Both the position numbers and the translations under genes were made by a program. Below the pieces are notes generated by a model. It saw only the letters and a list, made by a program, of their open reading frames with translations. It was not told where the DNA came from and ran no database searches. Of a stretch of DNA of 51,996 bases, positions 3,685 to 22,591 are shown piece by piece. Position 1 is the stretch's first letter, and each line of letters begins with the position of its first letter. Origin of the DNA: Pseudomonadota bacterium (lineage in GTDB: Bacteria; Desulfobacterota; Desulfobacteria; Desulfobacterales; Desulfolunaceae); assembly GCA_018818835.1 (NCBI GenBank), contig JAHIRD010000131.1, positions 1 through 51,996 of the forward strand. The letters are read 5' to 3'.

Positions 3685-3715
3685 TCATCCGTCATGCAAA
3701 AAGGAGAGGGTATTT

Positions 3716-4861
3716 ATGAATATACTCAACTATACGGAAGAACATCAGGCCTTTCGCGAAAGGTTTCGGGCCTTTATTGAAACCCAGGTGCTGCCCCATG
3801 CAGAGACCTGGGAAAAGGACCATTTTGTGCCCAGAGACGTGTGGCGTGCCATGGGCCGGGAAGGCTTTTTGTGTACCTCTGTGGCAAAGGAATATGGCGG
3901 TTTGGGCGGCGATTTTATCTATTCGGCCATTGTATGTGAGGAAATGGCTTCGTCCATGCAAACCGGTCTTGCCCCAACCCTCCACAGCGATGTGGTGGTG
4001 CCCTATATCGACGAATACGGATCACTTGAGCAGAAAAAGAAATACCTTCCCGGCTGTGTGACCGGTGACATTGTCACGGCCATCGCCATGACAGAGCCTG
4101 ATGCAGGTAGCGATCTCACATCCATGCGGACCACGGCTGTTGACCATGGGGATCACATTATCCTGTCCGGTTCGAAAACCTTTATCTCCTGCGGAATCCA
4201 TGCCGATCTCGCGGTGGTTGCCGCCCGGAATCCCGAGATTGAAGATCCGTACGCCGGCATGTCCCTGTACCTCGTCGAAGCCGGGACCCCTGGTTTTGAA
4301 AAAGGGAAAAAACTGGACAAGATGGGTTGGCACAGCCAGGACACAGCCGAGCTGTTTTTCAATGACTGCCGCATACCCAAAGAAAATCAGCTGGGGGAAA
4401 AGGGTTTTGGTTTTCTGATGCTGGTGGGAAAACTTCAGCAGGAACGCCTGTGTTGTTCCATGGGTGCGGTATATGGAGCGGAAATGTGCATGAAGGTGAT
4501 CATGGATTATTGCAGGGACACCACAGACGCATCTGAAAAACCCCTTTCAAAATTTCAGGCCATCCAGTTTGATTTGGTTGAAATGCTGACAGAGGTCAAG
4601 CTGGGGCGAACATTTCTGGACAAACTCATTGCCGACCACATGGAAGGGCTGGATGTCAAAGCCGAAACATCCATGGCCAAATACTGGACAACGGATATGG
4701 CCAACAGGGTTTTGGGAAAAAGCCTTACGATCATGGGCGAATACGGAACCCTTGAGGAAAATCCACTGGTCCAGGGCTGGCGGGACATGCGGGTGACCTC
4801 CATTTTTGCAGGCACCAATGAAATCATGAAGTATATCGTCGCCAAATTGATGCATCTCTGA
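3716..4861 (+). CDS. Acyl-CoA dehydrogenase, long-chain/isovaleryl catalytic type
   Basis: 381 residues starting MNILNYTEEH after AAGGAGAGGG. An upstream extension of the frame overlaps the previous gene and is rejected. Family marks are AMTEPDAGSD near 124-133 and FAGTNEIM near the C-terminus. The usual C-terminal catalytic Glu is Ala (FAGT). The alternative base of long-chain and isovaleryl enzymes, a Glu on helix G, is present as Glu243 in LQQERL. It is therefore expected to be active on long or branched acyl-CoA. It pairs with the preceding, differently built dehydrogenase in the same operon, so the two probably act on different chain lengths or positions. Confidence 0.9.
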   Translation: MNILNYTEEHQAFRERFRAFIETQVLPHAETWEKDHFVPRDVWRAMGREGFLCTSVAKEYGGLGGDFIYSAIVCEEMASSMQTGLAPTLHSDVVVPYIDEYGSLEQKKKYLPGCVTGDIVTAIAMTEPDAGSDLTSMRTTAVDHGDHIILSGSKTFISCGIHADLAVVAARNPEIEDPYAGMSLYLVEAGTPGFEKGKKLDKMGWHSQDTAELFFNDCRIPKENQLGEKGFGFLMLVGKLQQERLCCSMGAVYGAEMCMKVIMDYCRDTTDASEKPLSKFQAIQFDLVEMLTEVKLGRTFLDKLIADHMEGLDVKAETSMAKYWTTDMANRVLGKSLTIMGEYGTLEENPLVQGWRDMRVTSIFAGTNEIMKYIVAKLMHL

Positions 4862-5422
4862 TGTTTGCCACCCGCACCATTTGGTCGCTCAAGAACACGA
4901 AGAGCAACGCGCGGCAAAGCCACAACCAAAAATCAGGTCTCTCACGGAGGCACAAAGAACACGGAGTGAGATCATCGCACGGAGGGGCACGATGCGTCGT
5001 ACCCGTGCTTGCATCTCGACAGCGGACATTTGACTCATCCCAAAATTCATGTTTGGGGCCCCCGGCAGGGATAATCTTTTGCCCTTCTTCGTGGTTAAAC
5101 CGTTTTTTTATTTCGTTTCCAGGCAAAGCCTTGAAACTTAACTTTTTTTTTCATCATGAACGTCATGCTCTTGGTAAACTTGTTTTTTATTTTGTTAAAC
5201 CACCCGTTCGCGTTGCTCACTGAAGGACACGAAGAGCACGAAGAAAAACATGCCTCCGGTGGCCCGCTCCCCGCCTTCGCGGGGACAAGCTTTAAAAAGC
5301 TGGTCAACAGGATAGAAATTGAGCGCGAGTATGTTTTAACTGAGGGGAGTGCTCATAAATTTTTCTCACAGAGACACTAAGATCACTAAAACACTCTAAA
5401 CACATAAACAAGGAGACGGGCC
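4862..5422. repeat. Gap within the catabolic operon filled with degenerate dispersed repeats
   Basis: No convincing gene. Bases about 4888-4975 (CGAAGAGCAACGCGCGGCAA, then CACAA and TCTCTCACGGAGGCACAAAG) match 7650-7725. Bases about 5100-5200 (TTTCCAGGCAAAGCC, then CATGCTCTTGGTAAACTTGT) match 49545-49580 and 49640-49685. Bases 5198-5260 (CCACCCGTTCGCG, CTCACTGAAGG, CGAAGAGCACGAAG) match 49356-49400, 49689-49735 and 51157-51205. The end near 5355-5372 is a reverse copy of the CTGTGAGAAAAATTTATG piece at 112-125. AAGGAGACGGG at the right end is the ribosome site of the SDR gene. Confidence 0.65.
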
Positions 5423-6331
5423 ATGGACGATATCAGATTTGACGGACGGGTTGCCATAGTAACAGGTGCAGGTGCCGGACTTGGAAGAACCTATGCCCTT
5501 GCACTGGCCGAAAAGGGGGCCATGGTGGTTGTCAATGATCTGGGTGGCGCCCCTGACGGTTCAGGTGCAAGTAACCGTGCTGCGGATGAGGTTGTTGCGG
5601 ACATTCTTGACGCCGGGGGCAAGGCCGTTGCCAATTACGACAGCGTGGCCACGAAACAGGGTGGTGATAATATCGTAAAGACAGCTGTGGACGCCTTTGG
5701 GAAGGTGGATATCCTGATCAATAACGCCGGCATACTCCGTGATAAAAGCTTTTTGAAATTAGAAGAAGCCGAATGGGATATCGTTCTTGCCGTTCACCTT
5801 AAAGGCGCATTCAATGTAGCCCAGCCCGCCTTTAAAATCATGAAGGAAAACAGCTATGGGCGAATCATTAATACGGCATCAGGAGCAGGGTTGTACGGGA
5901 ACTTCGGCCAGGTCAACTATTGTGCGGCCAAGATGGGTCTGGTGGGACTGATGAACAACATATGCATCGAAGGAGCCAGGTACAACATCCTGTGCAACGC
6001 CATTGCCCCTATTGCAGCATCGCGCCTGACCAAGGATGTTCTCCCACCCTCGATCTGTGAGAAACTCAAGCCTGAATTTGTCACCCCCTTGGTTCTTTAC
6101 CTGGTCTCGGAACAGAACACCGACTCGAAAATGATTTTCAACTGCGCGGCAGGCTGGTTTAGTCGAACTGAAATTCTTTGTGCACCGGGAATCTGTCTGG
6201 GTGATGGCAAGCGACCTGTCAAGGCTGAAGAAGTGCGGGATAATTGGGCCGCGATCACCAGCATGGAGCAGGGCAGGCCCCTTGCCAATATCACAGAATC
6301 CTTCGGATTTTTAGGATCCATTCTGTCATAA
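5423..6331 (+). CDS. SDR dehydrogenase of the MFE-2 / 17beta-HSD type 4 kind
   Basis: 302 residues. The Rossmann motif TGAGAGLGR lies at 14-22, NNAG at 100-103, Ser153 in TASGAG, and Tyr166-x3-Lys170 complete the SDR catalytic set. The length, the FDGRVAIVTGAG start and the VNDLGG stretch after beta-2 are those of the (3R)-hydroxyacyl-CoA dehydrogenase domain of peroxisomal multifunctional enzyme type 2. It should oxidise (3R)-hydroxyacyl-CoA to 3-oxoacyl-CoA with NAD+. This matches the MaoC hydratase at 1664. The cytoplasmic enzyme stands 561 bases after the dehydrogenases and 70 before the thiolase. Exact substrate unknown. Confidence 0.87.
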   Translation: MDDIRFDGRVAIVTGAGAGLGRTYALALAEKGAMVVVNDLGGAPDGSGASNRAADEVVADILDAGGKAVANYDSVATKQGGDNIVKTAVDAFGKVDILINNAGILRDKSFLKLEEAEWDIVLAVHLKGAFNVAQPAFKIMKENSYGRIINTASGAGLYGNFGQVNYCAAKMGLVGLMNNICIEGARYNILCNAIAPIAASRLTKDVLPPSICEKLKPEFVTPLVLYLVSEQNTDSKMIFNCAAGWFSRTEILCAPGICLGDGKRPVKAEEVRDNWAAITSMEQGRPLANITESFGFLGSILS

Positions 6332-6401
6332 ATTTGATCAGGTGAAATCATCTTCAGATGAAACGATAACAAAAAATTTATAAGCGATAGGGGGCAGTCA
6401 C

Positions 6402-7583
6402 ATGGAAAATGTCAATGTAATCGGAGTAGGAATGACAAAGTTCACCACGCCCAAGGCAGGGATACCCTATACAATCATGGGAGTGGAAGCCGCCAGAGAT
6501 GCCTTGAAAGACGCCGGAATTGATTTCCGTGATGTCAAGCAGGCGTATACGGGATGGGTTTATGCAGACAGTTGCGCCGGGGAAAAAGTTCTTTATGAGA
6601 TCGGCATGACAGGGATTCCCATTTTCAATGTGAACAACAACTGCTCCACCGGATCCAATGCCTTGTATCTGGCCCGTCAAGCCGTGGCATACGGTGTGGC
6701 CGATTGCGTCATGGCTCTGGGCTTCGAGCAGATGGCACCCGGAGCCCTGGGAATGACCTTTACCGATCGTCCTGCCCCTTTGGAGAATTTCTTTGTCAAA
6801 TTAAACGAGGTCTATCCCCTCAGTGCAACAGCCCCGCCCGCAGCCCAGCTATTCGGAGGTGCCGGAATGGAGCATATGGACAAATACGGAACAAAACCCG
6901 AAACCTTCGGAAAGATCTCGGTCAAAGCTCGGAAACATGCGGAACATAACGAGCGGGCCGTTTTCAGAAATCTTCTGACCCTGGAAGAGGTCATGGCCTC
7001 ACCCCACCAGTATGGCCCACTCACCCGTTTCCAGTGTTGTCCGCCCACATGTGGTGCTGCGGCCGCCATCGTATGCAACGATGCCTATGCAACGCGTCAT
7101 GGGATCACTCCCTCGGTCTATATCGCAGGTCAATCCATGACAACGGATTTCCAAGGCACCTATACCGCCAAAAGTCCCATGATCATTGCTGGCTATGAGA
7201 TGACAGCCATGGCGTCAAAAGAGGTGTATGAACAGGCCGGAATCGGACCCGACGAGGTGGATGTGGTGGAACTCCACGACTGTTTCACGGCCAATGAACT
7301 GATCACCTACGAAGGCCTGGGCCTTACCCCCGAAGGCACAGCCGAACAATTTATCAATGATGGTCAGAACACCTACGGCGGCAAAGTCGTCACCAACCCC
7401 TCGGGCGGCCTCCTGTCCAAAGGCCATCCCCTGGGCGCCACCGGCCTTGCCCAATGCGCCGAATTGGTCTGGCAACTTCGCGGCACGGCAGGGGTCCGCC
7501 AGGTCCCGAATGCCAAAATCGGACTTCAACACAATATCGGTCTCGGAGGCGCCGCCGTGGTGACCATGTATCGCAGTTATTGA
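6402..7583 (+). CDS. SCP2-type thiolase (acetyl-CoA acyltransferase)
   Basis: 393 residues of the SCP2/SCPx thiolase branch. The nucleophile is Cys81 in NNNCSTG. The HDCF motif is followed by TANELITYEGLG. The C-terminal active-site loop reads NPSGGLLSKGHPLGATG, and a glycine-rich end follows. All usual catalytic elements are present, so it should cleave 3-oxoacyl-CoA with CoA to give acetyl- or propionyl-CoA. It closes the beta-oxidation spiral begun at 1664. It contrasts with the Cys-less relative at 11381. Start follows a GGGGG ribosome site. Confidence 0.9.
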   Translation: MENVNVIGVGMTKFTTPKAGIPYTIMGVEAARDALKDAGIDFRDVKQAYTGWVYADSCAGEKVLYEIGMTGIPIFNVNNNCSTGSNALYLARQAVAYGVADCVMALGFEQMAPGALGMTFTDRPAPLENFFVKLNEVYPLSATAPPAAQLFGGAGMEHMDKYGTKPETFGKISVKARKHAEHNERAVFRNLLTLEEVMASPHQYGPLTRFQCCPPTCGAAAAIVCNDAYATRHGITPSVYIAGQSMTTDFQGTYTAKSPMIIAGYEMTAMASKEVYEQAGIGPDEVDVVELHDCFTANELITYEGLGLTPEGTAEQFINDGQNTYGGKVVTNPSGGLLSKGHPLGATGLAQCAELVWQLRGTAGVRQVPNAKIGLQHNIGLGGAAVVTMYRSY

Positions 7584-10168: not shown

Positions 10169-11053
10169 CTATTTGCTGCTTGATTTCTTTTTTTCACGGA
10201 ATAATGAAACAATCGTCAGGTCGGTTATAAATTCGATAATATCGTCCAGATTATATTTATTATCCAGCGAAAGTCTCAGCGACATAATCTCAATCAGTCC
10301 GGTCAAACTATACCCCAGTAAGTCCGGGTCAATTTTTCTTATGAGTCCTTCATTCATAGCCGTTTCAATCTCCCGGATCACAGGCTGGGTCAGGCCGCGA
10401 TAGATGATTTGAATTTTTTCAGCCGGCCATTGTTCCTCACTGGCCATTTCGGCCCGCAACTGATTTAAAATTTCACTGTATTTCGTGTAATTATTGTAAA
10501 ATACACGTCCTCTGATTTTCAATCGTTTCAGAAAATCATCCTCACCTTTTATGGCGATAGCCGCCTCTCCGACAATATGTTTGAACACATCATCAATGAC
10601 TTCGATGAACAAATCACGCTTGTTTTTGAAATAGAGATAGAATGTCCCTGTGGAAATTTTAAGGGAACGGGTGATGTCGGAAACTTTTGTCTGGTGGTAT
10701 CCCTTCTTGCTGAAAATCTGTATGGTTTGATTGATAATGTCCTGCCGTTTTTTCGCTTTTTCTTTTGTGGTGGATACCGGTTTACTTGCATCAACCCTAT
10801 CATCTTGCCTGGTCGTCGTTGAATTCCCTTGATCAATTTGGTTGATCTGTTCTTTCAGAAACGTGATCGGGACACGTGTCCCTTTTTTCAGTGCCTGTAT
10901 TTCTTTAAGACGGCGAAGATGGCTGTCATCATAGTATGCCATGGTTCTACCGGTTTTATGGGGTGCGTGGAGCAGGCCCTGGCGCAGGTAAAAATGTATG
11001 GTTGTGCGAGGCACACCGGATATGGCTTCCAGTTCTTTGATTCTCATTGTCAT
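10169..11053 (-). CDS. MerR-TetR fusion transcription regulator
   Basis: 294 residues with two DNA-binding units. Residues about 3-75 form a MerR-type winged helix: MRIKELEAISGVPRTTIHFYL, then GLL, then YYDDSHLRRLKEI (shown in pieces). After a Thr/Lys-rich linker, residues about 100-150 form a TetR-type helix-turn-helix (IFSKKGYHQTKVSDI, STGTFYLYFKNKRDLF), and the rest is an all-helical ligand-binding domain. It lies divergent to the 11.4-22.6 kb catabolic cluster and is the natural candidate for its substrate-sensing regulator. Such fusions exist in Desulfobacterota but none with known effector is recalled. Start could be the second ATG six bases later. Confidence 0.82.
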   Translation of the reverse strand: MTMRIKELEAISGVPRTTIHFYLRQGLLHAPHKTGRTMAYYDDSHLRRLKEIQALKKGTRVPITFLKEQINQIDQGNSTTTRQDDRVDASKPVSTTKEKAKKRQDIINQTIQIFSKKGYHQTKVSDITRSLKISTGTFYLYFKNKRDLFIEVIDDVFKHIVGEAAIAIKGEDDFLKRLKIRGRVFYNNYTKYSEILNQLRAEMASEEQWPAEKIQIIYRGLTQPVIREIETAMNEGLIRKIDPDLLGYSLTGLIEIMSLRLSLDNKYNLDDIIEFITDLTIVSLFREKKKSSSK

Positions 11054-11380: not shown

Positions 11381-12559
11381 ATGAGCAAAAAAAATCTGGC
11401 AATCATTGGTGTCGGTGAGGTTCCCACAGGAACGTATCCTGACCGGTCACCATGGGACATTATTTATGAATCCTGCATCGCCGCAGTCAGGGATGCAGGA
11501 ATTCATAAAAACGATGTGGAAGGGGTTATCGCCGTCGCCCCCCAGGCTCAAAATCAGCTGGCCGGTGAAATATCTTTTGGAAAGATCCCCGAAGAACTCG
11601 GGTTAAACGGATGCAGGGACGTTTGCACCTGCAATGCTGGGGGTGCGTCCACATCCAATTGTCTTCGGCTGGCTGAACAGTATATTGAAAGCGGTCTGGC
11701 AAAAATCGTTCTGATTCCCCATGTGACGGTTCATTCCACCATTCCTGTTCCCGATCTGATTAATTTTTTTGCCAAGGCAGGCATTGATCTTCAGTGGGAA
11801 TATCCCTTCGGCAATACCTATAACAGCATTATTGCGATGATGACCCGGCGGTATATGCATGATTCAGGAACAACCGACGAAGAAATGGCATCCATTGTGG
11901 TTTCTTTAAGGAAGTGGGCCGCCCTTGATCCGAACTCCATTTTTTACAAAAAAAAGGTGCCGTCTGTTGAGGAGGTGCTTTCGTCGGGCATGGTGTCATC
12001 ACCTCTGCATAAACGGGAGTGCAATGTGCTGGGAGACGGGGGCGGCGCAATGATTGTCACATCGGCTGAGATTGCAAAAAAAATGGGAAAACCTGCCGCC
12101 TACAAACGGGGTGAAAGTGCACGCTATTTCAGCGCCTTTACCACCACCAGAAACAATGATGAGTTTGTTAACGGATTTCGTGATTCCACCCGGGAAGCCC
12201 TGGACGATGCGGGGATAACAAAGGATGACATTGATATCTGGAATACCTACCTCGCCTATCCGGTGTGTCATCCCATATTCATGGAGGCGGTGGGCCTCTG
12301 TGAGCCGGGGCAGGCAGGGAAAATGTTTATGAATGGAGATACCTGGCCTGGTGGGAAAATGCCATGGTCAACCATCGGTGATGCGGTAGGTCGTGGGCAT
12401 ACCGGTTCTGGTGTCAGCATGGCCACCTATATTGAAACCGCCCGTCAGTTGATGGGAAAGGCCGGTGAAAAGCAGGTGCCAGACGTGAAATACGTGTTTC
12501 AGAACACATCCGGTGGCTCGGGAATGAACTTTATCGCAACCGTTTGGGGGAGGGAATAA
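11381..12559 (+). CDS. Thiolase-fold protein lacking the catalytic Cys, Ltp2/SCP2-aldolase-like
   Basis: 392 residues of thiolase fold. In the active thiolase at 6402 the nucleophile motif is NNNCSTGSNAL; the equivalent here is NAGGASTSNCL, which puts Gly88 in place of Cys. The HDCF motif is replaced by NTYLAYP (Tyr290). The GHPLGATG loop becomes GHTGSG with His340 kept. These are the changes of SCP2-like retro-aldolases such as Ltp2, which use tyrosines and need a DUF35 partner. The next gene begins with exactly such a DUF35 domain. Likely role: retro-aldol cleavage of a beta-hydroxyacyl-CoA. Alternative: a thiolase working with DUF35, like BbsAB of benzylsuccinate degradation. AAGGAG precedes the start; a longer frame from 11297 is rejected. 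Confidence 0.8.
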   Translation: MSKKNLAIIGVGEVPTGTYPDRSPWDIIYESCIAAVRDAGIHKNDVEGVIAVAPQAQNQLAGEISFGKIPEELGLNGCRDVCTCNAGGASTSNCLRLAEQYIESGLAKIVLIPHVTVHSTIPVPDLINFFAKAGIDLQWEYPFGNTYNSIIAMMTRRYMHDSGTTDEEMASIVVSLRKWAALDPNSIFYKKKVPSVEEVLSSGMVSSPLHKRECNVLGDGGGAMIVTSAEIAKKMGKPAAYKRGESARYFSAFTTTRNNDEFVNGFRDSTREALDDAGITKDDIDIWNTYLAYPVCHPIFMEAVGLCEPGQAGKMFMNGDTWPGGKMPWSTIGDAVGRGHTGSGVSMATYIETARQLMGKAGEKQVPDVKYVFQNTSGGSGMNFIATVWGRE

Positions 12560-12561
12560 TC

Positions 12562-13881
12562 ATGACAGACTATCAGAAGCCAATTCCTGCGATTCAACCC
12601 TGGACCAGAGAGTTCTGGAACGCAACGAAACAGGGAAAACTCCTTATACAGAAATGTCAGGACTGCCATTCCATGATTTTTTTTCCCAAAAAAGTCTGCC
12701 CGGAATGCTGGTCAGACAATCTGTGCTGGCAGGAGGCCAGCGGGAAAGCGCAGGTGTATACCTATACGACCCAGATGGATATGGTGGAACCCAAGTTCAG
12801 GGCCGACCTTCCCTATGTGATTGCCATGGTTGATCTGGAAGAAGGGATTCGCATGACAACCCGGATTGTGAATTGCAACCCGGAGGATGTGACGATTGGC
12901 ATGAATGTCCACGTGGTGTTTGAAGATATTTCCCCGGAATGTTCTCTGCCCATGTTTCAGCCGGCGGATGAAACATTAAGGCGATTGCCACCGTGTATTG
13001 ACGAATGTGAGAGCCTTGCGACACGTTCCGGAAGTCCGGTCAGTCCGGATACATACGAGACCATTATCTACGACATCGGCGGGAAGAATGGCGCTGTATG
13101 TACGATTACACTGAACCGGCCGAGCAAATACAATGCCATTAACTACCGGATGGCCGCTGAACTCATCGATGCGTTTCGCAGGGTCCGTGATGAATCGTCC
13201 GTGGGGGTTGTCGTGTTGACAGGGGCGGGTGAAAAAGCGTTCTGCACTGGCGGTGACCTGGAAATATTTCCGTCTCTTTGCGAGCATAAGAGCAGTCTCA
13301 ACTGGCTTTCCCATGAGGGTCTGGATGTGCAACGGGCCATCAGCGGCTGTGAAAAAGTTGTCATATGCAAAATCAACGGGCATTGCCTGGCTGGTGGCCT
13401 GGAATTGGCTCTGTCCTGTGATCTTATTTATGCCAGGGAATCGGCAATGATGGGTGCAACGGAAATCAACATGGGGCTGTTGCCAGGCTGGGGTGGAACG
13501 GCAAGGCTGCCACGAAGTATGCCCATATTCAGGGCCCGGGAAATTATTTTCTCCGGTCGAAAAGATTACCCGGCGAAAGACATGTACGACATGGGTCTGC
13601 TTACGAGGGTGTTCAAGGATGACGAGTTTGAGGAGCAGGTTGAAACCGTCGTGAAAAACATTGCGTCCAAAAAACCGGAAGCCCTTCGCATGGGCAAGGA
13701 AATCATGGCACGGTCTGTTGATGGCTGCGATATCGAAACAGCCCTTTCGGTTGAACGAAACGGGATCCAGTGGCTGACATATGCCCCGGACGTCCAGAAA
13801 ATGATGGAGGGTTTCAGGCAGAAACCCTCCGATCTTCTGGCCAGGCAGAAAGAAACGAATCTGAGGAGTGATAATAAATAA
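12562..13881 (+). CDS. DUF35 (zinc ribbon + OB) - crotonase fusion, enoyl-CoA hydratase
   Basis: 439 residues. Residues 10-135 are a DUF35 unit: an FWNATKQGKL helix, zinc-ribbon Cys32, Cys35, Cys46 and Cys49, then an OB fold. Residues about 165-430 are a crotonase: ITLNRPSKYNAIN, AFCTGGD oxyanion loop near 227-232, and both hydratase glutamates, Glu281 in GGLELAL and Glu301 in ATEINMGLLPG. It should hydrate an enoyl-CoA and, through DUF35, bind the thiolase-fold partner encoded two bases upstream. In the steroid system the DUF35 domain is fused to a MaoC hydratase (ChsH2); fusion to a crotonase is not one I recall being described. Starts at ATG 12562 after GGAGGG. Composition matches its neighbours. 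Confidence 0.85.
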   Translation: MTDYQKPIPAIQPWTREFWNATKQGKLLIQKCQDCHSMIFFPKKVCPECWSDNLCWQEASGKAQVYTYTTQMDMVEPKFRADLPYVIAMVDLEEGIRMTTRIVNCNPEDVTIGMNVHVVFEDISPECSLPMFQPADETLRRLPPCIDECESLATRSGSPVSPDTYETIIYDIGGKNGAVCTITLNRPSKYNAINYRMAAELIDAFRRVRDESSVGVVVLTGAGEKAFCTGGDLEIFPSLCEHKSSLNWLSHEGLDVQRAISGCEKVVICKINGHCLAGGLELALSCDLIYARESAMMGATEINMGLLPGWGGTARLPRSMPIFRAREIIFSGRKDYPAKDMYDMGLLTRVFKDDEFEEQVETVVKNIASKKPEALRMGKEIMARSVDGCDIETALSVERNGIQWLTYAPDVQKMMEGFRQKPSDLLARQKETNLRSDNK

Positions 13882-13975: not shown

Positions 13976-15139
13976 ATGGATTTTGATATAAGTAAAGAAC
14001 AGAAGATGATCCAAAAAGAGATGAGCAATTTCTGCAAAAAAGAACTGAATAAAGACTATGTCCGCTGGATGGACGAAAATGTGGATTTCCCCCCGGATGA
14101 ACTCTGGAAGAAGCTGACGGATGTCGGTATTTTCCGTGCCGCTGTACCCGAGGAATATGGAGGAGACGGGCTCAGCTGTTTTGATCAGATGATTGCCTAC
14201 GAGGAAATCTGCAAGGCATCCATGTCGGTGGCCCTGGCCGTGGGAACCACCTTTAGTTTTGGTCCGCGATTCATTACCGATCTGGGGACAAAAGAGCAGA
14301 AGGAAAAATACCTTCCCCTCATCGGTGACGGAAAGCTTAAAACATGCATGGCGTTGACGGAGCCGGCCGGAGGCACGGATATTCTCGGTGCCATATCAAC
14401 ATCGGCTGAAGAAAAGCAGGACCGGTGGGTGATCAACGGGGAGAAAGTGTTTATTACTGCCGCCCATGTCTCTGATTATATGATCACCATCTGTAAGACG
14501 GAAAAAGATGCCAAACCCTCTAAATCCCTTTCCGTGTTACTGGTTCCTTCCAACAGCAAAGGAATCACGATCACCCGGATCCCAAAGATCAGCTGCCACC
14601 ATTGTGATTCTGTGGGCATCACCTTTTCTAATGTGGAAATTCCCCATGAAAACATTCTGGGGACGAAAGGGAATGGCTGGTATGAGATGCTGGATGTCCT
14701 GAATCCGGAACGTATCGGATGCGCCATGATGGGGGTCGGCCTGATTGCGGCGGCCTATGACGATGCCTTTGAGTATGCAAAGACACGTCACGCGTTCGGC
14801 GGACCCATCAGTCGGTTTCAGATCCTTCAACACTATCTGGCCGATATGTATATCAATCTGGAGAATTCACGGAATCTTACCTACAAGGCCGCATGGCTTT
14901 TTGATCAGGGAAAACCCTACCACCTGGAATCGACCATGGCAAAACTGGTTTCTTCAAACGGCGCGCTGCATGCCGGCAGATTTGGTGCTGAGATCCTAGG
15001 CGGTTACGGGATCTGTTCGGAATACGCGATGCAGCGATATCTGCGGGATGCCTATCAGCTGCAGTTTTCACCCATATCAAATGAGATGAGCAAAAATATG
15101 ATGATGCAGTTCCAGGGATATCCCAAATCATGGGCGTAA
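13976..15139 (+). CDS. Acyl-CoA dehydrogenase, helix-G Glu type
   Basis: 387 residues of the flavin acyl-CoA dehydrogenase family: N-terminal helices, ALTEPAGGTD near 127-136, ILGGYG near the C-terminus. The C-terminal EGT motif is replaced by FSPISNEM, so the usual base is absent. Glu245 in LNPERIG occupies the place of the helix-G Glu of long-chain and isovaleryl enzymes and is the likely base. It would make the double bond that the DUF35-crotonase hydrates. Start at 13976 follows CAGGAG; the preceding 94 bases include a possible 8-bp hairpin (about 13901-13929). Electron acceptor is presumably ETF, which is not encoded here. Confidence 0.88.
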   Translation: MDFDISKEQKMIQKEMSNFCKKELNKDYVRWMDENVDFPPDELWKKLTDVGIFRAAVPEEYGGDGLSCFDQMIAYEEICKASMSVALAVGTTFSFGPRFITDLGTKEQKEKYLPLIGDGKLKTCMALTEPAGGTDILGAISTSAEEKQDRWVINGEKVFITAAHVSDYMITICKTEKDAKPSKSLSVLLVPSNSKGITITRIPKISCHHCDSVGITFSNVEIPHENILGTKGNGWYEMLDVLNPERIGCAMMGVGLIAAAYDDAFEYAKTRHAFGGPISRFQILQHYLADMYINLENSRNLTYKAAWLFDQGKPYHLESTMAKLVSSNGALHAGRFGAEILGGYGICSEYAMQRYLRDAYQLQFSPISNEMSKNMMMQFQGYPKSWA

Positions 15140-15160: not shown

Positions 15161-16177
15161 ATGAGTGAGTTTAAAAAAGACGATTATTTTAAAATCGACC
15201 CCGAACCCCACCTGATCGGCAATATGGATCTTGTTAATCATTTCCCGGGTGTCCAGATGTGGTGGCGGGCAATTGATGCCATCCACCGCCCCTTGCTAAC
15301 CGGCATTCCACCGGAGGCATATGCGGGGATGGAGGACTGGGAAATGGAGAAATCGTCTGACCCGGCAGGAATCATCAGGGCCATGGATAAATATGGTGTG
15401 GACATCGCCTGTCTCCTGCCGGAATCCATGATGGACACCACAGGATACACCACCCGGTGGTGTACGAACACCGAAATGGCCAAGGTGGTGGAATCCAACC
15501 CGGAACGATTCATGTACCAGCCCAATCTCTCACCGATCAAACACAAAGGGGTGAAAAATACCCTCTGGGAGCTGGAGTACTGGGTCAAGGAAAAGGGGGC
15601 GAAAATATTTAAGTTTTATCCTCCGGAAGATACCTATATCAACGATCCTGATCTCTGGCCTTTTTATAAGAGAGCCGAGGAATTGGATATTGTATTAGAT
15701 ATTCACACCGGATTTTCATGGGTTCCGCCGGGAAAAAGCAAATACTCTCTTCCGATTTACCTGGATGATGTGGCCCGGGATTTTCCAGGACTGAAAATCA
15801 ATGCCTTTCATATGGGATATCCCTATTGTGCGGATTTAAACATGATCGCCATGCAGCATCCCAATGTGTATGTCTGCCTGAGCCTTCTCCTTCCCTGGTC
15901 AATCAGTTCACCACGAAATTTTGCAAAGATTATCGGAGAGGCACTCCGATGGGTCGGCCCTGATAAAATTACCTGGGGAACCGATTATGCCGGTTACGGG
16001 GTTCAGATCCGGACAGGCGTTATGGGCATGAGGGAATTCCAGATTCCGGAGGATATGCAGAAGGATTACGGGTATCCGGCCATTACAGACGAAGATCGGA
16101 AAAAAATATTTGGAGAAAATCTTGGCAGGCTGCTGGGTGTCGATACGACAAAACGTAGGATAAAACAGAACTCATAA
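15161..16177 (+). CDS. Amidohydrolase-2 (ACMSD-like) protein with ExH metal motif
   Basis: 338 residues, TIM-barrel amidohydrolase of the ACMSD group. Instead of the N-terminal HxH the sequence reads IDPEPHL, giving Glu15-x-His17. Further ligands would be His182 (DIHTG), His217 (AFHMG) and Asp275 (WGTDYAG). As I recall, the Glu-x-His form is that of gamma-resorcylate decarboxylase and LigW, which remove carboxyl groups from aromatic acids. So a non-oxidative decarboxylase or a C-C or ester hydrolase is more likely than a simple amidase. It lies between an acyl-CoA dehydrogenase and an ene-reductase with short gaps, in one operon. AGGAGG precedes the ATG. Reaction is inferred. Confidence 0.78.
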   Translation: MSEFKKDDYFKIDPEPHLIGNMDLVNHFPGVQMWWRAIDAIHRPLLTGIPPEAYAGMEDWEMEKSSDPAGIIRAMDKYGVDIACLLPESMMDTTGYTTRWCTNTEMAKVVESNPERFMYQPNLSPIKHKGVKNTLWELEYWVKEKGAKIFKFYPPEDTYINDPDLWPFYKRAEELDIVLDIHTGFSWVPPGKSKYSLPIYLDDVARDFPGLKINAFHMGYPYCADLNMIAMQHPNVYVCLSLLLPWSISSPRNFAKIIGEALRWVGPDKITWGTDYAGYGVQIRTGVMGMREFQIPEDMQKDYGYPAITDEDRKKIFGENLGRLLGVDTTKRRIKQNS

Positions 16178-16188
16178 GGAGAAGAACC

Positions 16189-17547
16189 ATGACACATGCG
16201 ATGAAATTTAAGCACATCTTAAGCCCCATCAAAATCGGGCCCGTGGAACTGAAAAACAGAATTGTTCTGGCACCAATGAACGAAACCATGTCCGGCTATA
16301 ATGGTGAAGCCACGGAACAGATGCTCGCCTATTTTGCGGCCCGTGCAAAAGGTGGAACGGCACTGGTTGGGACCGGTGCCATCATGGGAACACGGCTTGC
16401 AGCGGAATTTGTGTGGGGCCGTAACTTATACTGTTTTAACCATGGACATCTGCAGGGATTGAACATGCTTACCGACCGGATCCATTACTTTGGCGCCAAA
16501 GCGTCCGCACAGATGACCATCGGGTTTGGCCGACAGGGCCATTCTTATGATCATGAAAAACTGGCACCGGCAGCTACCGGTGGGCTTCCCTACGAGATCT
16601 CCGGGGAAACGGCACCCAAAGGGGTGGTCGATGCATGGAGGATGTCCGAGCATCCACGATCTTTTCTTGTGGGGCAGAACACCCGTGAAATGTCCATTGA
16701 TGAAATCCATAAAGAACAGAAGGAATTTGCAAACAGCTGTCAGCTGGCTGTTATCGCTGGTTTTGATGTGATTGAAATCCATGCTCCCCATGGATACCTT
16801 GAACATCAGTTCCTTTCTCCTCTGTCAAATAAGCGGACGGATATGTATGGCGGTGAATGGCGGAACCGCAAGCGGTTCTTGAATGAAATCATGGAGCAGG
16901 TCCGATACGCCTGTCCGGGAGTTGCGGTGGGTGTGCGTATCAGTGCGGAAGAGCATATGGTCGGCGGGTTGACGGAAGAGGAAATGATTGATGTCGCCAG
17001 AGATATGGAAGCACGGGGCGCGGATTATATCAGTCTTTCCGATGGCGCCGGGTATGAGGAAGGCGGGCATCTGATTGCGGACATGGACCGATCAAAACAT
17101 TATCCGGAACATGGGGAAGCGTTCAAAAAAGCATTGAAAATTCCGGTGATCGTCACGTCACAGCATGATCCGGTGAAGATTGACGCCAATATTGCTGCAG
17201 GGAAATATGATATTCAGGCCATGGGACGTCAGCTGTTTATCGATCCCGAGTACATCAATAAACTGATGGACGGAAGGGAAAAGGACATTGTCCGGTGCAA
17301 GCGCTGCAACACCTGCCTGATGCGCTGCCTGGCCGGTATCGTTCCTGCCTGTCCGGATAACCCGAATCTGGGCCGTGAGTATGTTATGGATGATTACAAA
17401 ATCGGCCCATGGCAGAAACATGAGTCCATTCTTCCTGAAGGAATGATCCGGGTGCCCATGCCGGCACTGGAAAGACCCTGGTGGAAAAAAGAAGTGGAGC
17501 TGATTGAAAAGAGCTGGCGGCCTCTGCAGGGACGAACCAAGCGATGA
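16189..17547 (+). CDS. Old-yellow-enzyme-family Fe-S ene-reductase lacking the FAD/NAD half
   Basis: 452 residues. Residues about 8-360 are the FMN-binding TIM barrel, with His198 and His201 in IHAPHGYL followed by QFLSPLSN and RTDMYGG. Cys370, Cys373, Cys376 and Cys388 follow, the [4Fe-4S] site of 2,4-dienoyl-CoA reductase, 2-enoate reductase and 2-naphthoyl-CoA reductase. Those enzymes continue for about 200-250 residues with FAD- and NAD(P)H-binding domains; here only about 60 residues follow and no dinucleotide motif is seen. It probably reduces an enoyl- or aryl-CoA double bond with electrons from a separate donor. The stop is clean, with no sign of a broken downstream half. AAGGAG precedes the start. 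Confidence 0.83.
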   Translation: MTHAMKFKHILSPIKIGPVELKNRIVLAPMNETMSGYNGEATEQMLAYFAARAKGGTALVGTGAIMGTRLAAEFVWGRNLYCFNHGHLQGLNMLTDRIHYFGAKASAQMTIGFGRQGHSYDHEKLAPAATGGLPYEISGETAPKGVVDAWRMSEHPRSFLVGQNTREMSIDEIHKEQKEFANSCQLAVIAGFDVIEIHAPHGYLEHQFLSPLSNKRTDMYGGEWRNRKRFLNEIMEQVRYACPGVAVGVRISAEEHMVGGLTEEEMIDVARDMEARGADYISLSDGAGYEEGGHLIADMDRSKHYPEHGEAFKKALKIPVIVTSQHDPVKIDANIAAGKYDIQAMGRQLFIDPEYINKLMDGREKDIVRCKRCNTCLMRCLAGIVPACPDNPNLGREYVMDDYKIGPWQKHESILPEGMIRVPMPALERPWWKKEVELIEKSWRPLQGRTKR

Positions 17548-17699: not shown

Positions 17700-19007
17700 A
17701 TGAAACAGAAGAAATTACACATATCGGTAATCGTGATTCTGTTGACAATGGTCTTTCCATCCCTGGCATTGAGTCATGGCTGGGCCGGGTATGAACAGGG
17801 GGCAAAAGCAAGGGGGATGGGAGGTGCTTTCACAGGCCTTGCCGATGATCCTACAGCCATTTATTACAATCCGGCCGGTATTGTTCAGCTTGAGGGCACC
17901 GAGTTGTCTCTTGGATTTGCCGCTGTATCGGGCATTGGACGCTTTGAAAGCGCAGGGACTTCCGGTATGCCGGGTATCAGCCCGGGGAAGACAGCGGATT
18001 TGGATCAGCAGTATTTCTTTATACCCAATCTCTATATCACATCAAAAATTAACGATAAAATCTCTCTGGGCCTTGCTGAATACACCATTTACGGACTTGG
18101 CTTCACGTGGGAGGATTCGTTTGAGGGCCGTTTCGCACCGGGAAGCAAACATGCTGAACTGAAAACCATGACCCTGAACCCCGTGATAGCCTGTCAGGTC
18201 ACCGACACGCTGTCGCTGGCCGTCGGAGGTCGGCTGGAAAGAGCAGACTTAACCCTTGAAAACAAAATTTTTGTGGCGCCAGGTGTGGATGAGGTCAATT
18301 CGGAAATAAGCGGTGATGATTATAGTCTGGGGTGGAATGCCGCACTCCTGTATACGATTTCCAAGGAGTGGCATGCCGGCTTGAACTACAGAAGCCAGAT
18401 CAGGCATTCCTTTAAAGATCTCGATGTTGAGTTCTCTCCTCAGATTGATGCTCTCGGCCCGATACCCGTGGGAATCATCAACACGAACGCCAATCTCAAT
18501 GTCATATTGCCGCAGTTCGCATCATTTGGACTTGCCTGGTCCAGAGGGCCTCTTACCGTGACGGCTGATGGATACTGGTGGCAGTGGTCTAAAATCAAGG
18601 AGTTACGTTTTGATCTGGAAAATCCGGTTGCAGGGCAAACGGCCCTGGGTGTGCCGATGAACTGGGAGGATACCTTGAGCTGGGCCATGGGAACAGAATA
18701 CATGGTCAAGGCTTTCGACAGGGATATCCGTCTGCGGGGTGGATTCATGTATGAACAATGTCCGATCCCCGATAACGCGGTCAGCCCGGTCGGATTTCAG
18801 GGAGATAACCTGATTTACAGTGTCGGTGCCGGTTCCCGGATAGGTCCGTTTTATTCGGATTTTTTCTTCTCCTATGTCAAGACCAATGACCGCACGTGGA
18901 ATAACGCCATCGGTAATGCCCCGAATCCTGGCGGAGGACCGGTTTCCGGCGAATTTAAAGATTATGGAACCTATATTATAGGGAGCAACATAACGTACAA
19001 ATTCTGA
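17700..19007 (+). CDS. FadL/OmpP1/TodX-type outer-membrane hydrophobic-compound transporter
   Basis: 435 residues. A signal peptide of about 25 residues (MKQKKLHI, hydrophobic core, ending ALSHG) is followed by a FadL start: GARGMGG-like KARGMGGAFTG, then DDPTAIYYNPAG with the conserved NPAG. The rest alternates polar and hydrophobic as in a 14-strand barrel and ends in an aromatic residue, Phe, as outer-membrane proteins do. It should let fatty acids, aromatics or steroids cross the outer membrane, and so fits a hydrophobic growth substrate for the cluster. The stop TGA is also the first three bases of a TGATGGCGTCGTAAAA repeat end. Confidence 0.9.
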   Translation: MKQKKLHISVIVILLTMVFPSLALSHGWAGYEQGAKARGMGGAFTGLADDPTAIYYNPAGIVQLEGTELSLGFAAVSGIGRFESAGTSGMPGISPGKTADLDQQYFFIPNLYITSKINDKISLGLAEYTIYGLGFTWEDSFEGRFAPGSKHAELKTMTLNPVIACQVTDTLSLAVGGRLERADLTLENKIFVAPGVDEVNSEISGDDYSLGWNAALLYTISKEWHAGLNYRSQIRHSFKDLDVEFSPQIDALGPIPVGIINTNANLNVILPQFASFGLAWSRGPLTVTADGYWWQWSKIKELRFDLENPVAGQTALGVPMNWEDTLSWAMGTEYMVKAFDRDIRLRGGFMYEQCPIPDNAVSPVGFQGDNLIYSVGAGSRIGPFYSDFFFSYVKTNDRTWNNAIGNAPNPGGGPVSGEFKDYGTYIIGSNITYKF

Positions 19008-19056
19008 TGGCGTCGTAAAAGGGATGTGTGAGTTTTGCTAATTTCTTACACATCCC
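19005..19056 (+). terminator. Repeat-element end and hairpin after fadL
   Basis: TGATGGCGTCGTAAAA (19005-19020) is an isolated end of the dispersed inverted-repeat element. Right after it, GGGATGTGTGAG (19021-19032) and CTTACACATCCC (19045-19056) form a 12-bp stem with one G-U pair and a 12-base loop. There is no T-run, so it may attenuate or protect the 3' end rather than fully terminate. Confidence 0.5.
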
Positions 19057-19094
19057 TCCACAACATTATATGTGATTTACCAGGAGTGCACACG

Positions 19095-20099
19095 TTGAAA
19101 GCAATTGATCAAAGCCATGGAAAATTATTTATGGATCCGGACCCGGATCATGCCAGAAAATTTTTTCGGAAGAAAAATCGAAAAAAAATGAACAAGGTCA
19201 TGGATCTTGGTCAGGCCATCGAAACATTTGTTTTAGACGGCGAATACCTGGCCATCGGCGGATTCGGTTCTAACAGGACCCCCATTGCGGCCTGTCATGA
19301 GATTGTCCGGCAGGGAAGAAAAGGCATGGGCTTTCTGGGGCACACATCCACCCACGACATGCAGGTTCTAAGTGCCGGTGAAGTGTATGACCGAATCGAC
19401 ATTTCCTATGGGGTGGGCCTGGAGGCCAGGGGCTTGTCGCGCTGTTCCAGGGCTTACCTGGAAAGTGGCAAGGTGATGGTGACCGAATGGACCAATTACG
19501 CTCTTACGGCACGTTTGAAAGCAGCATCCATGGGTATCCCCTTTATGCCTGCCCGTACCATGCTGGGCACGGATACATTTAAAAAAAGCGCCGCCATCCA
19601 GGCGATCTGTCCCTTTACGAACACGACTCTCGCTCTGGTTCCAGCCCTGTATCCGGATGTGGCCGTTATCCATGTCCATGAAGCGGATATTTACGGAAAT
19701 GCCCGGTTTAAAGGTATCGCTGTGGCAGATATCGAACTGGCCCATGCGTCTAAACGGCTGATCATCACCACAGAACGCCTGATCCGCCATGATGAGATCT
19801 CCCGTGATCCTTCCATGACCCAGATCCCCTTTCTCCTGGTGGATGCTGTGTGCGAAGTGCCTTACGGCGCATATCCCGGCGGCATGCCCGGCGAGTATTT
19901 TTCCGATGAAGATCACCTCACGGACTGGTTGGATGCGGAAAAAAACGACGAAACATTCAACGCGTTTATCAAAAAGGAGATTTTCGGTTGCAGGAACCAT
20001 GAGGATTACCTGAATCTCCATGGTGGCCGTGAACGCATGGCGGCGCTGAGGGCTGAAGAATGTCTGTTGCATAAGGAGTTTTATCGTGAAGACGTATAA
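19095..20099 (+). CDS. CoA-transferase subunit A, glutaconate-CoA-transferase (GctA) type
   Basis: Class I CoA-transferase alpha subunit: the MDLGQAIETFV region, then YLAIGGFGSNRTP, and a long Rossmann-like body ending near LHGGRERMAAL. A TTG start at 19095 is chosen because CAGGAG lies eight bases before it and it keeps a charged N-terminal extension (KLFMDPDPDHARKFF) that, from memory, is seen in related proteins. ATG 19131 or 19188 are alternatives; a TTG at 19035 would run through the hairpin and is rejected. It overlaps the B subunit by 14 bases. With it, CoA should move from a donor acyl-CoA to the pathway acid. Confidence 0.83.
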   Translation: MKAIDQSHGKLFMDPDPDHARKFFRKKNRKKMNKVMDLGQAIETFVLDGEYLAIGGFGSNRTPIAACHEIVRQGRKGMGFLGHTSTHDMQVLSAGEVYDRIDISYGVGLEARGLSRCSRAYLESGKVMVTEWTNYALTARLKAASMGIPFMPARTMLGTDTFKKSAAIQAICPFTNTTLALVPALYPDVAVIHVHEADIYGNARFKGIAVADIELAHASKRLIITTERLIRHDEISRDPSMTQIPFLLVDAVCEVPYGAYPGGMPGEYFSDEDHLTDWLDAEKNDETFNAFIKKEIFGCRNHEDYLNLHGGRERMAALRAEECLLHKEFYREDV

Positions 20100-20856
20100 C
20101 CACATGGAAATGATGATTATTGCAGCGGCCCGGGAACTTGAAAACGGGTCTACAGCCGCTGTGGGAACCGGTGCTCCCTGTGCTGCGGCAATGCTGGCCC
20201 AGAAAACCCATGCACCGGATCTGATCATTCTGTTCGAGGCTGGAGGGATCAGTCCCCGGCTTGTGGATATGCCCATATCTGTGGGAGACTCTCGAACCTT
20301 TCACCAGGCCTCAAAAGCAGGAACCATGGGGGATGTGATGGATGCCTGCGCCAGAGGGACGGTGGATTACACCTTTCTCGGCGGCGCTCAGATCGACCGG
20401 TACGGCAACCTTAATTCGACGATGATCGGCAGGGACCATAAGAAGCCGAAGGTTCGGTTTCCCGGCAGTGGAGGTGCCAATGATTTTGCATCCCTGTGCT
20501 GGCGAACCATGGTCATGACCGTACAGGACAAACGGCGTTTTGTGGAGAAACTGGATTTTATAACCACACCGGGCTGGCTTGATGGCGGGAACTCCCGTGA
20601 GCAGAGCGGTCTGCCCAGAGGAACCGGGCCTTACCGTATCATCACCCATATGGCGGTGATGGATTTTGAGCCGGTATCAAAACGCATGCGGGTGATATCC
20701 CTTCATCCCGGGTATTCCTTTGATGATGTTCAGGAGGAATGCGGATTTGAGCTGCTTCGGTCGGAGATAATTCTGGATACTCCGAAGCCCGGTGTCAGCG
20801 AATTGGAGATTCTGCGGAAAGAGGTGGACCCCAGGGGCTATTTGATTGGACGATAG
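20086..20856 (+). CDS. CoA-transferase subunit B, GctB type
   Basis: 256 residues, GTG start after AAGGAG, overlapping subunit A. The fold is that of glutaconate CoA-transferase beta. Glu51 in LFEAGG aligns with the region of the catalytic glutamate (Glu54 in GctB) that forms the glutamyl-CoA intermediate. That favours a true transferase over the IpdAB-type ring hydrolases, which as I recall lack this residue. Later marks are TFLGGAQID and KVRFPGSGGA. The pair may activate the imported acid or deacylate an end product. Subunit stoichiometry and substrate are unknown. Confidence 0.84.
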   Translation: MKTYNHMEMMIIAAARELENGSTAAVGTGAPCAAAMLAQKTHAPDLIILFEAGGISPRLVDMPISVGDSRTFHQASKAGTMGDVMDACARGTVDYTFLGGAQIDRYGNLNSTMIGRDHKKPKVRFPGSGGANDFASLCWRTMVMTVQDKRRFVEKLDFITTPGWLDGGNSREQSGLPRGTGPYRIITHMAVMDFEPVSKRMRVISLHPGYSFDDVQEECGFELLRSEIILDTPKPGVSELEILRKEVDPRGYLIGR

Positions 20857-21081: not shown

Positions 21082-22422
21082 ATGATGACTTTATCACAGC
21101 AATACATTCAAAAAAACGTGTCGGCGGAAAAGGCTGCCGGGATGGTCAAGTCAGGAGACTGGATCGATTACGGCCATATGCTGGCATCGCCCATGTTTAT
21201 GGACAAGGCGTTGAGCCGAAGGGTGGGAGAGCTTACCGATGTAAAAATCCGTTGTTCAGGGTTTCCAGGTTATTCCGCTGTGGTTATGGCCGACCCGGAG
21301 CAGAAAAGTTTCATATACAACACAGCGTTTATGACGTTTGCGGACAGGGGGTTGAACGCCCGGGGCATTATCAGTCATATCCCCGCTCTGTACCATGAAA
21401 TACCGGGATTCAGCACCCGTCATCACCACACGGATGTATGTATTATCCGGACAGCGCCCATGGATAAGAATGGTTTTTTCAACTTCGGCATCTGCAACGA
21501 CTGCCAGAGTGAAATGATCCCCAACGGGAAGATGCTGATTGTGGAAGTCAACGAGACGATTCCCCGTTGCCTGGGGGGCCTCCATGAATCGGTCCATATC
21601 TCAGATGTGGACTACATTGTGGAATCAGATAATGAACCGTTGCTGGATCTGCCTTCGGAAGAACCCTCGGAAAACGACCGGTTGATTGCCGGACATATCA
21701 TCAAAGAGATCCGGGACGGAGCCTGTATCCAGCTGGGGATTGGCGGCATGCCCAATGCCCTGGGAAAACTCATCGCCCAGACGGATCTGAAGGATCTGGG
21801 CGTGCACACGGAAATGATGGTGGACGCGTATCTGGATCTTTACGAATCGGGGCGGGTGACCAACCTGAAAAAGAAGCTGGATAAAGGGAAAATGGTCTAT
21901 ACCTTTGCCATAGGAAGCCGGCGGCTGTATGATTTTATGGATAACAATCCCCTGTTCGCCAGTTATCCGGTGAGCTATACCAATCATCCGTCACGGATCG
22001 CTTTAAATGACCAGGCCGTGTCTATCAACGGATGCATTGACGTGGATTTGTTTGGCCAGGTCTCGTCCGAGTCCTCCGGATTTCGTCAGATATCGGGGAC
22101 GGGGGGGCAGTTTGATTTCCATTTTGGTTCCTACCAGTCCCATGGCGGTAAATCGTTTGTCTGCATGAATTCAACCCGGATGGATAAACACGGAACACGC
22201 CATTCAAATATCCGACCGTTTTTTGATCCCGGAACAATTGTGACACTCCCACGGACCGTGGTTCACCATGTCGTCACTGAATACGGCATCGCCATGCTGA
22301 AAGGTAAATCTGACTGGGAGCGGGCCGATGCGCTGATCGCCATCGCCCATCCGGATTTCAGGGACAGCTTGATTCGGCAGGCCGAAGAGATGAAGATCTT
22401 TACAAACAGAAACCGTGAATAG
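21082..22422 (+). CDS. Acetyl-CoA hydrolase/4-hydroxybutyrate CoA-transferase family protein
   Basis: 446 residues, one-chain CoA-transferase of the butyryl-CoA:acetate / 4-hydroxybutyrate type. Marks are LGIGGMPNALG (about 218-228), the catalytic Glu244 in HTEMMVDAY, and a C-terminal TEYGIA-LKG segment near 418-427. It should exchange CoA between acetyl-CoA and another carboxylate. Together with the GctAB-type pair upstream, the cluster has two unrelated CoA-transferases, perhaps one for entry and one for a fragment. The 225 bases before it hold nothing recognised. Start is ATG 21082 or 21085 after GACGAGGA. Confidence 0.87.
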   Translation: MMTLSQQYIQKNVSAEKAAGMVKSGDWIDYGHMLASPMFMDKALSRRVGELTDVKIRCSGFPGYSAVVMADPEQKSFIYNTAFMTFADRGLNARGIISHIPALYHEIPGFSTRHHHTDVCIIRTAPMDKNGFFNFGICNDCQSEMIPNGKMLIVEVNETIPRCLGGLHESVHISDVDYIVESDNEPLLDLPSEEPSENDRLIAGHIIKEIRDGACIQLGIGGMPNALGKLIAQTDLKDLGVHTEMMVDAYLDLYESGRVTNLKKKLDKGKMVYTFAIGSRRLYDFMDNNPLFASYPVSYTNHPSRIALNDQAVSINGCIDVDLFGQVSSESSGFRQISGTGGQFDFHFGSYQSHGGKSFVCMNSTRMDKHGTRHSNIRPFFDPGTIVTLPRTVVHHVVTEYGIAMLKGKSDWERADALIAIAHPDFRDSLIRQAEEMKIFTNRNRE

Positions 22423-22435
22423 GCATGATCCGAAA

Positions 22436-22591
22436 ATGCTGGAACGGATTAAAGACCGAATCTCTTTAAAGCGTATGGGGTACCCGGATGAGGTGGCTTT
22501 TTTTGTTTCATATCTGGCATCCGATCTGTCGAGTTACATGACAGGCACAGCCATACCCGTCACCGGTGGAGCAGATCTCTTTGCTTTTTAA
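22436..22591 (+). pseudogene. C-terminal remnant of an SDR (FabG-like) gene
   Basis: A 51-codon frame reads ERIKDRISLKRMGYPDEVA, FFVSYLASDLSSYMTGTAI, PVTGGADLFAF. This is the end of classical SDR oxidoreductases (FabG: PLGR-x-G-x-PEE, FLASD, S-Y-x-TG, DGG). The Rossmann half and active site are missing, and the frame begins right at the end of the CoA-transferase gene. So an SDR gene once followed that gene and most of it was deleted. A start at GTG 22415 is possible but a functional protein is unlikely. Confidence 0.75.

Follow-up and report, generated by a model that had tools for sequence, protein, structure and literature searches.

A gene pair in a 51,996-nucleotide stretch of DNA from a bacterium of the Desulfobacterota (contig JAHIRD010000131.1 of assembly GCA_018818835.1, positions 1 to 51,996 of the forward strand; hereafter the window) probably encodes a coupled hydratase/retro-aldolase, judging from its sequence. 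The first gene encodes a thiolase-fold protein that lacks the nucleophilic Cys, and the second a fusion of a DUF35 module with a crotonase, that is, an enoyl-coenzyme A (CoA) hydratase (ECH). The crotonase would hydrate the substrate, and the docked thiolase-fold protein would then split it by retro-aldol cleavage. This reading, proposed in an earlier note written from the sequence alone, was judged the best of those considered, with Gly88, Tyr290 and DUF35 all matching the aldolase type. The parts of the gene pair are as follows.

11381..12559, + strand: thiolase-fold protein of 392 residues, likely a retro-aldolase, with Gly88 at the position of the nucleophilic Cys, Tyr290 at that of the HDxF His, and His340 kept
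12562..13881, + strand: fusion protein of 439 residues, DUF35, linker and crotonase (Pfam)
12616..12723, + strand: zinc ribbon (zf-ChsH2, residues 19-54; Pfam) with Cys32, 35, 46 and 49
12727..12924, + strand: OB fold (OB_ChsH2_C, residues 56-121; Pfam)
12982..13047, + strand: linker of variable sequence, 22 residues long as measured between the two match ends
13048..13878, + strand: crotonase (enoyl-CoA hydratase) domain with Glu281 and Glu301 (Pfam, alignment)

The thiolase-fold gene, stop codon included, runs to 12559 and the fusion gene starts with ATG at 12562, so that the coordinates and the 2-base gap given in the earlier note were both borne out. Thiolase_C_1 was matched in the upstream protein (107 bits, Pfam), and the motifs NTYLAYP and GHTGSG, to which the note had drawn attention, start at residues 288 and 339. 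In the fusion protein, the four cysteines named for the zinc-ribbon/OB DUF35 module are all present and Pfam agrees with this assignment. The hydratase part matched ECH_1 (residues 175-420, Pfam) and gave no match to MaoC, in line with the idea of an unrelated hydratase in the same role, and the two glutamates placed at the crotonase end, Glu281 and Glu301, are invariant in 28 of 28 ECH rows. We compared 38 loci, all of which include the thiolase-fold gene, and 13 of them are fused, with linkers of 21-24 residues. Since the gene arrangement recurs in other genomes, it is not due to chance. The fused loci come apparently from 12 genomes (L006 and L033 are seemingly from one), and a sequencing error as the source of the fusion was thereby ruled out. 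One fused locus, L009, has a frameshift within its ECH part, and L033 ends inside its ECH part.

The missing nucleophile was located by alignment. Gly88 stands opposite Cys83 of 7YVY and Cys85 of 6ESQ both in a profile alignment of the window protein with eight relatives and in a 46-row MAFFT alignment, as the earlier note had claimed. A single-sequence phmmer alignment pairs the catalytic Cys of 7YVY, by means of compensating gaps, with Cys84, which lies four residues upstream of Gly88. This residue was rejected as a hidden nucleophile: the profile and multiple alignments place Gly88 there, and because Cys84 is replaced by Val, Thr or Ile in 14 of the 38 homologues, it is no conserved nucleophile. 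A Cys in the thiolase site, which would speak against the proposed reading, was looked for in the alignments and none is there. The pair of residues that marks membership of the thiolases, nucleophilic Cys and HDxF His, is absent from the 11381-12559 protein, and the three other Thiolase_C_1 genes of its own genome all carry the Cys.

Gly88, Tyr290 and His340 are invariant at all 38 loci (window counted), as are Tyr293 and the surrounding glycines. In the 46-row alignment, Gly83 and Tyr294 of the aldolase Ltp2, and Gly89 and Tyr302 of the aldolase Sal, align with Gly88 and Tyr290, and 4U4E likewise has Gly in the 88 column and Tyr in the 290 column. Cys in the first of these columns goes with His in the second in 7YVY, in 6ESQ and in the window's other thiolase-fold gene (6402-7583). 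As a control we used thiolase-fold proteins that PF22691 picked out in 30 related genomes, including the window's own. Loci were taken for the best 30 matches and one own-genome locus was added; 30 of the 34 candidates (>300 residues) were used, corresponding to 29 distinct genes, as one occurs in two loci. All 23 control rows with Cys at 88 have His at 290, and all 7 rows without it (5 Gly, 2 gaps) have Tyr. Tandem thiolase-fold genes with Gly or a gap at 88 and Tyr at 290 occur at three loci (L126, L137 and L141), some of them near DUF35 and some with a CNPIGATG motif; they form another aldolase-like or acyltransferase-like group.

For the DUF35 part, the best solved relatives are Shy (3.7e-23) and the DUF35 domain of ChsH2 (1.3e-22), followed by weaker matches to an acetoacetyl-CoA thiolase complex (1.5e-13), PhlB (7.6e-6) and BbsA (2.3e-4). 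Foldseek searches with the fusion model put 9MYR (Sal-Shy) and 6OK1 (Ltp2-ChsH2) at the top, the meaningful matches covering the DUF35 part; in that model the DUF35 block has mean predicted local distance difference test (pLDDT) values of 47-88, except 38 at residues 71-80, and confidence is low elsewhere. By sequence and fold match, this DUF35 is of the kind that partners aldolases.

The ChsH2/Ltp2 analogy drawn in the earlier note holds, and Sal-Shy of Comamonas testosteroni (9MYR), with the same gene and domain order, is a closer precedent. Sal-Shy resembles the window pair in its Gly-for-Cys thiolase-fold aldolase, its catalytic Tyr, the hydratase gene downstream, and the N-terminal DUF35 followed by a linker (26 residues according to excerpts of PMC12329534, against 22 here). 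It differs in that its hydratase is a hot-dog MaoC protein and not a crotonase, in that Sal has Tyr302 and Cys304 where the window protein has Tyr290, Ala292 and His340, and in its steroid substrate. Ltp2 with ChsH1/ChsH2, from the degradation of the cholesterol side chain (6OK1), shares the Gly for Cys, a Tyr294 equivalent to Tyr290 and a DUF35 that docks the hydratase; in contrast, it has Tyr344 in place of His340, a MaoC heteromer, and its DUF35 at the C-terminus of ChsH2.

What is known of these enzymes bears on how the window pair might work. In Sal, Tyr302 is the base, Cys304 the acid, and the amide of Gly89 touches the hydroxyl; Ltp2 uses Tyr294 and Tyr344 (PMC12329534). Sal cleaves a 22-hydroxy substrate to an aldehyde and acetyl-CoA (PMC12329534, PMC11321319). 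The shy gene lies downstream of sal and encodes an N-terminal DUF35 and a C-terminal MaoC domain, and the DUF35 domain alone co-purifies with Sal (PMC11321319); the abstract of the Sal paper puts DUF35 at the C-terminus (PMC12329534), but the 9MYR chain match from residue 3, together with PMC11321319, points to the N-terminus. In the Ltp2 system, cleavage is required against an unfavourable hydration, and the DUF35 of ChsH2 is unimportant for hydratase or aldolase, according to the account in PMC11321319. On the importance of DUF35 for activity the papers disagree: in C. testosteroni TA441, DUF35 was indispensable for aldolase activity, and MaoC and DUF35 expressed separately still worked (PMC12502768); because they did, the covalent link need not be essential. 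Channelling was tested in Sal-Shy and was absent (PMC12329534), and therefore it is not to be assumed for the window pair.

By analogy, the following reaction can be proposed. CoA-transferases of the operon would make the acyl-CoA, which the acyl-CoA dehydrogenase encoded at 13976-15139 would desaturate. The crotonase domain, with both catalytic glutamates, would add water to give the 3-hydroxyacyl-CoA, and the thiolase-fold partner would split this between C2 and C3 into acetyl-CoA or propionyl-CoA and a ketone or aldehyde, with neither a 3-hydroxyacyl-CoA dehydrogenase nor thiolysis being involved. Following Ltp2 and Sal, Tyr290 would act as the base that deprotonates the 3-hydroxyl, with space and a backbone NH for this hydroxyl provided by Gly88, and His340 would be the acid that protonates the enolate; this putative Tyr290/His340 pair differs from the pairs of both known aldolases. 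The DUF35 module, by homology, would dock the fusion protein onto the thiolase-fold dimer and let cleavage pull hydration.

One part of the earlier proposal was not borne out in the form given, namely that the purpose of the pair is a beta carbon without hydrogen. Because Sal turns its 22-hydroxy substrate into an aldehyde and acetyl-CoA, with no need of a tertiary alcohol, a blocked beta carbon is not required; it is one possible option, and in anaerobic naphthalene degradation a lyase does act at a tertiary hydroxyl (PMC12016498). More tentatively, and with considerable doubt, the thiolase-fold proteins may be anaerobic CoA retro-aldolases of a distinct family, one that has a Tyr/His pair of its own, occurs in Desulfobacterota-type genomes and is tied covalently through DUF35 to a crotonase. 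Without oxygen, such enzymes would remove acyl side chains with a ring or branched beta carbon (cycloalkyl acids and steroid-like compounds are examples). Since crotonases form trimers or hexamers whereas the aldolase core of Sal/Ltp2 is dimeric, a large mixed-symmetry assembly, very different from Sal-Shy, would be expected.

Several observations weigh against a retro-aldolase. The best whole-chain match of the thiolase-fold protein among solved structures is 7YVY, a Cys-type acetyl-CoA acetyltransferase (5.5e-34); 4U4E, Ltp2 and Sal come after it in phmmer, and 7YVY ranks first in the profile alignment search too. The best NCBIfam match is also named acetyl-CoA acetyltransferase, although with 197 of 421 bits it is far under the cut-off. 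The second catalytic residue of both known aldolases is absent: Ala292 occupies the position of Cys304 of Sal, His340 that of Tyr344 of Ltp2 and Gln352 of Sal, and the Asp of the YDxF motif is Leu291. DUF35 adjoins 11 of the 23 Cys/His control rows and 5 of the 7 Cys-less rows, counts in which adjacency may be missed at short loci; DUF35 adjacency alone is thus no aldolase marker, and the residue pair says more. Seven of the 38 loci have no adjacent ECH gene, 14 have nearby a short-chain dehydrogenase/reductase (SDR) that is a possible 3-hydroxyacyl-CoA dehydrogenase and would fit ordinary beta-oxidation, and the AlphaFold models of the two proteins are weak (mean pLDDT 38 and 46). The earlier note had named many well-characterised homologues with another function as a refuting outcome; among the homologues met, no close one is characterised, though the best whole-chain solved match is the Cys-type 7YVY. 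A tree built from 18 family rows out of the 38 and 8 others speaks for the aldolase side, the family falling with Ltp2, Sal and 4U4E and being split from five Cys-type rows at 100/99; it is joined to neither Ltp2 nor Sal, branches are long and false joins possible.

One rival reading is ordinary beta-oxidation, where the crotonase would hydrate, the SDR oxidise and the thiolase-fold protein cleave the 3-oxoacyl-CoA without a Cys, by hydrolysis or by direct attack of CoA. It would account for the FabG-like SDR in many operons, for the His340 kept from the thiolase GHP position, and for a thiolase being the best whole-chain solved match. We consider it unlikely: Gly88 with Tyr290 is the aldolase combination, thiolases depend on their Cys, and the window keeps only the end of an SDR gene while the neighbouring operon genes stay open. 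A DUF35-served complex of another kind, such as an HMG-CoA synthase complex, appears quite improbable. DUF35 does serve such complexes (matches 6esq, 5m3k and 9vbo), but it matches them less well in sequence and in Foldseek, the thiolase in the HMG-CoA synthase complex still has its Cys (Cys85 of 6ESQ), and the acyl-CoA dehydrogenase, the CoA ligase or CoA-transferase and the window's FadL look catabolic. That the thiolase-fold protein, its nucleophile lost, is a dead scaffold, leaving the reaction to the crotonase, which might even hydrate and cleave as feruloyl-CoA hydratase/lyase does (lyase-type crotonases of this sort exist), is very improbable, given that Tyr290, Tyr293, His340 and the nearby glycines, needless for a scaffold, are invariant and that both crotonase glutamates are retained, as in plain hydratases.

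Other DUF35 and lyase systems show further likenesses. The benzoylsuccinyl-CoA thiolase BbsAB (7PXP), which works in anaerobic aromatic degradation, combines a thiolase fold with a DUF35 subunit; it differs in being a thiolase by name and by established knowledge and in its far weaker DUF35 match. In the ibuprofen proteins IpfD and IpfE, the latter of which we take to be a DUF35 protein, we know of no crotonase fusion. By description, they resemble the window pair in a thiolase-like step that frees propionyl-CoA from a branched acid (PMC9195938). ThnQ/ThnS of anaerobic naphthalene degradation are similar by description in that beta-oxidation is blocked and a lyase acts on a tertiary 3-hydroxyacyl-CoA, and the thn operon also has an amidohydrolase-superfamily protein, ThnN; the lyase there, in contrast, is AtuA-like (PMC12016498). 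An acetone cluster of Desulfotomaculum, with DUF35, ECH and acetyltransferase genes, can be likened by gene content only.

We also followed the distribution and origin of the fusion. A pattern scan of genome contigs gave 7 loci, 6 of them full relatives with 70-80% identity, from entries titled Desulfobacteraceae, Desulfococcus, Desulfosudis and a deltaproteobacterium. The fusion protein was matched in 22 of 389 genomes of the window's order (E 1e-60 or better, own genome counted) and in 9 of 395 genomes of a phylum sample (1e-70). Besides the 13 fused loci and the 7 without an adjacent ECH gene, 18 of the 38 have a separate adjacent ECH gene; DUF35 lies downstream of the thiolase-fold gene in all 38, and 6-106 bases separate the match ends. 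Seven of the split loci (L028, L040, L044, L045, L049, L089 and L094) have DUF35 and ECH in the same frame with 18-45 bases and one stop codon between them, and the step from split to fused is therefore small. The thiolase-fold tree unites 11 fused loci in a clade (99/98) that excludes L090 and L091, which come from other families of the phylum; its starred branches are compatible with one origin of the fusion. The fused group of the ECH tree (28 rows) includes one split locus, L043, and the starred branches force at least 2 changes. Exchange of ECH genes, repeated fusion or a return to the split state may thus account for this pattern.

In the window's own genome, one operon is fused and two are split. 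DUF35 was matched there exactly three times, always beside a Gly88-type protein. The two split operons (L038 and L039), in which DUF35 and ECH are encoded by separate genes, are paralogous and lie within ~30 kb on contig C184; each comes with a regulator, CoA-transferases and an SDR of its own. Three operon versions in one genome may mean three substrates. Among five plasmid regions opened, two, on Caulobacter and Achromobacter plasmids, carry unfused trios with Gly/Tyr thiolase-fold proteins; by eye, the Caulobacter crotonase keeps both glutamates and the Achromobacter one lacks both. The other three regions (Rhodococcus DK180, Rhizobium etli and Rhodococcus opacus S8) lack one member of the trio beside the rest. 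A crotonase gene beside DUF35 and thiolase-fold genes is therefore not rare, and the covalent fusion is the new part.

According to excerpts of a 2010 structure paper, DUF35 occurs fused to thiolases, to SDR-like domains, to SCP2 and to hot-dog dehydratases; the list includes no crotonase (PMC2954200). No description of a DUF35-crotonase fusion was found in the open-licence literature, searched mostly at the level of titles and abstract openings, in keeping with the earlier note, whose author knew of none; apparent mentions of DUF35 with a crotonase were discarded as chance matches to DUF358 and DUF3501. If the proposed reading is right, the combination of a DUF35-tethered hydratase and a thiolase-fold aldolase arose with two unrelated hydratase folds, and the DUF35 tether would be a general way of pairing hydration with cleavage. 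It would also place a retro-aldol route in anaerobic operons on contigs without a canonical 3-hydroxyacyl-CoA dehydrogenase (one genome checked). The Gly88/Tyr290 pair offers a simple two-residue test with which entries named acetyl-CoA acetyltransferase or lipid-transfer protein could be re-annotated.

The gene pair is accompanied by the following genes.

13976..15139, + strand: acyl-CoA dehydrogenase, same operon
15161..16177, + strand: Amidohydrolase_2 protein, frequent operon member, with E15, H17 and H182 conserved in all 30 aligned rows and D275 in 29 of them (window counted twice)
16189..17547, + strand: old-yellow-enzyme family oxidoreductase, frequent operon member
17700..19007, + strand: FadL/TodX-type outer-membrane transport protein
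19035..20099, + strand: CoA-transferase subunit, glutaconate CoA-transferase A-like
20086..20856, + strand: CoA-transferase subunit, glutaconate CoA-transferase B-like
21082..22422, + strand: CoA-transferase of the acetyl-CoA hydrolase/transferase family
10169..11053, - strand: divergent regulator with a MerR head and a TetR domain, frequent near the operon

Within 10 kb of the 38 loci we found an acyl-CoA dehydrogenase at 35, an old-yellow-enzyme relative at 30, the amidohydrolase at 28, the MerR/TetR regulator at 28, an AMP-forming ligase at 25 and the SDR at 14 (window's remnant counted). Cut-offs were at least 40% identity for acyl-CoA dehydrogenase, ligase and SDR and 28% for the others, and short contigs depress the counts. 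At the 29 loci with at least 8 kb downstream, the numbers were 28 for the acyl-CoA dehydrogenase, 26 each for old-yellow-enzyme and amidohydrolase, 23 for the regulator, 22 for the ligase and 13 for the SDR. The window has CoA-transferases and FadL in place of the ligase. Thiolase-fold open reading frames (ORFs) besides the 38 family genes are only four, in the window, L041, L096 and L097; C-C cleavage would therefore be the task of the Gly88 protein, provided that the operon works as one. Of the 10 matches to 3HCDH_N in the own genome, none lies on the window contig or C184.

After the last CoA-transferase gene, the + strand at 22400-22591 holds a remnant of an SDR gene, its final 63 codons, with 75% identity to the operon-ending SDR of a relative; because the rest of the gene is missing, this copy looks broken. 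Upstream of the aldolase operon, the + strand at 1664-7583 encodes an MFE-2 N-terminal and MaoC hydratase, two acyl-CoA dehydrogenases, an SDR and a Cys-type thiolase-fold protein, by sequence a complete ordinary beta-oxidation set; no such set lies beside the operon in the relatives' loci inspected.

No paper in the open-licence literature searched could be tied to this operon, and neither the glutaconate CoA-transferase-like genes nor the amidohydrolase pointed to one particular substrate. A search with the amidohydrolase gave one weak match. This protein has an E-x-H metal motif (E15, H17) where H-x-H is expected, conserved in the aligned rows, and its site may, as a guess, be decarboxylase-like. 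At L041 (16240-18230, + strand), a weak thiolase-fold ORF (40 bits) and, after it, an ORF that by eye starts like a 3-hydroxyacyl-CoA dehydrogenase lie across the regulator from the fused operon.

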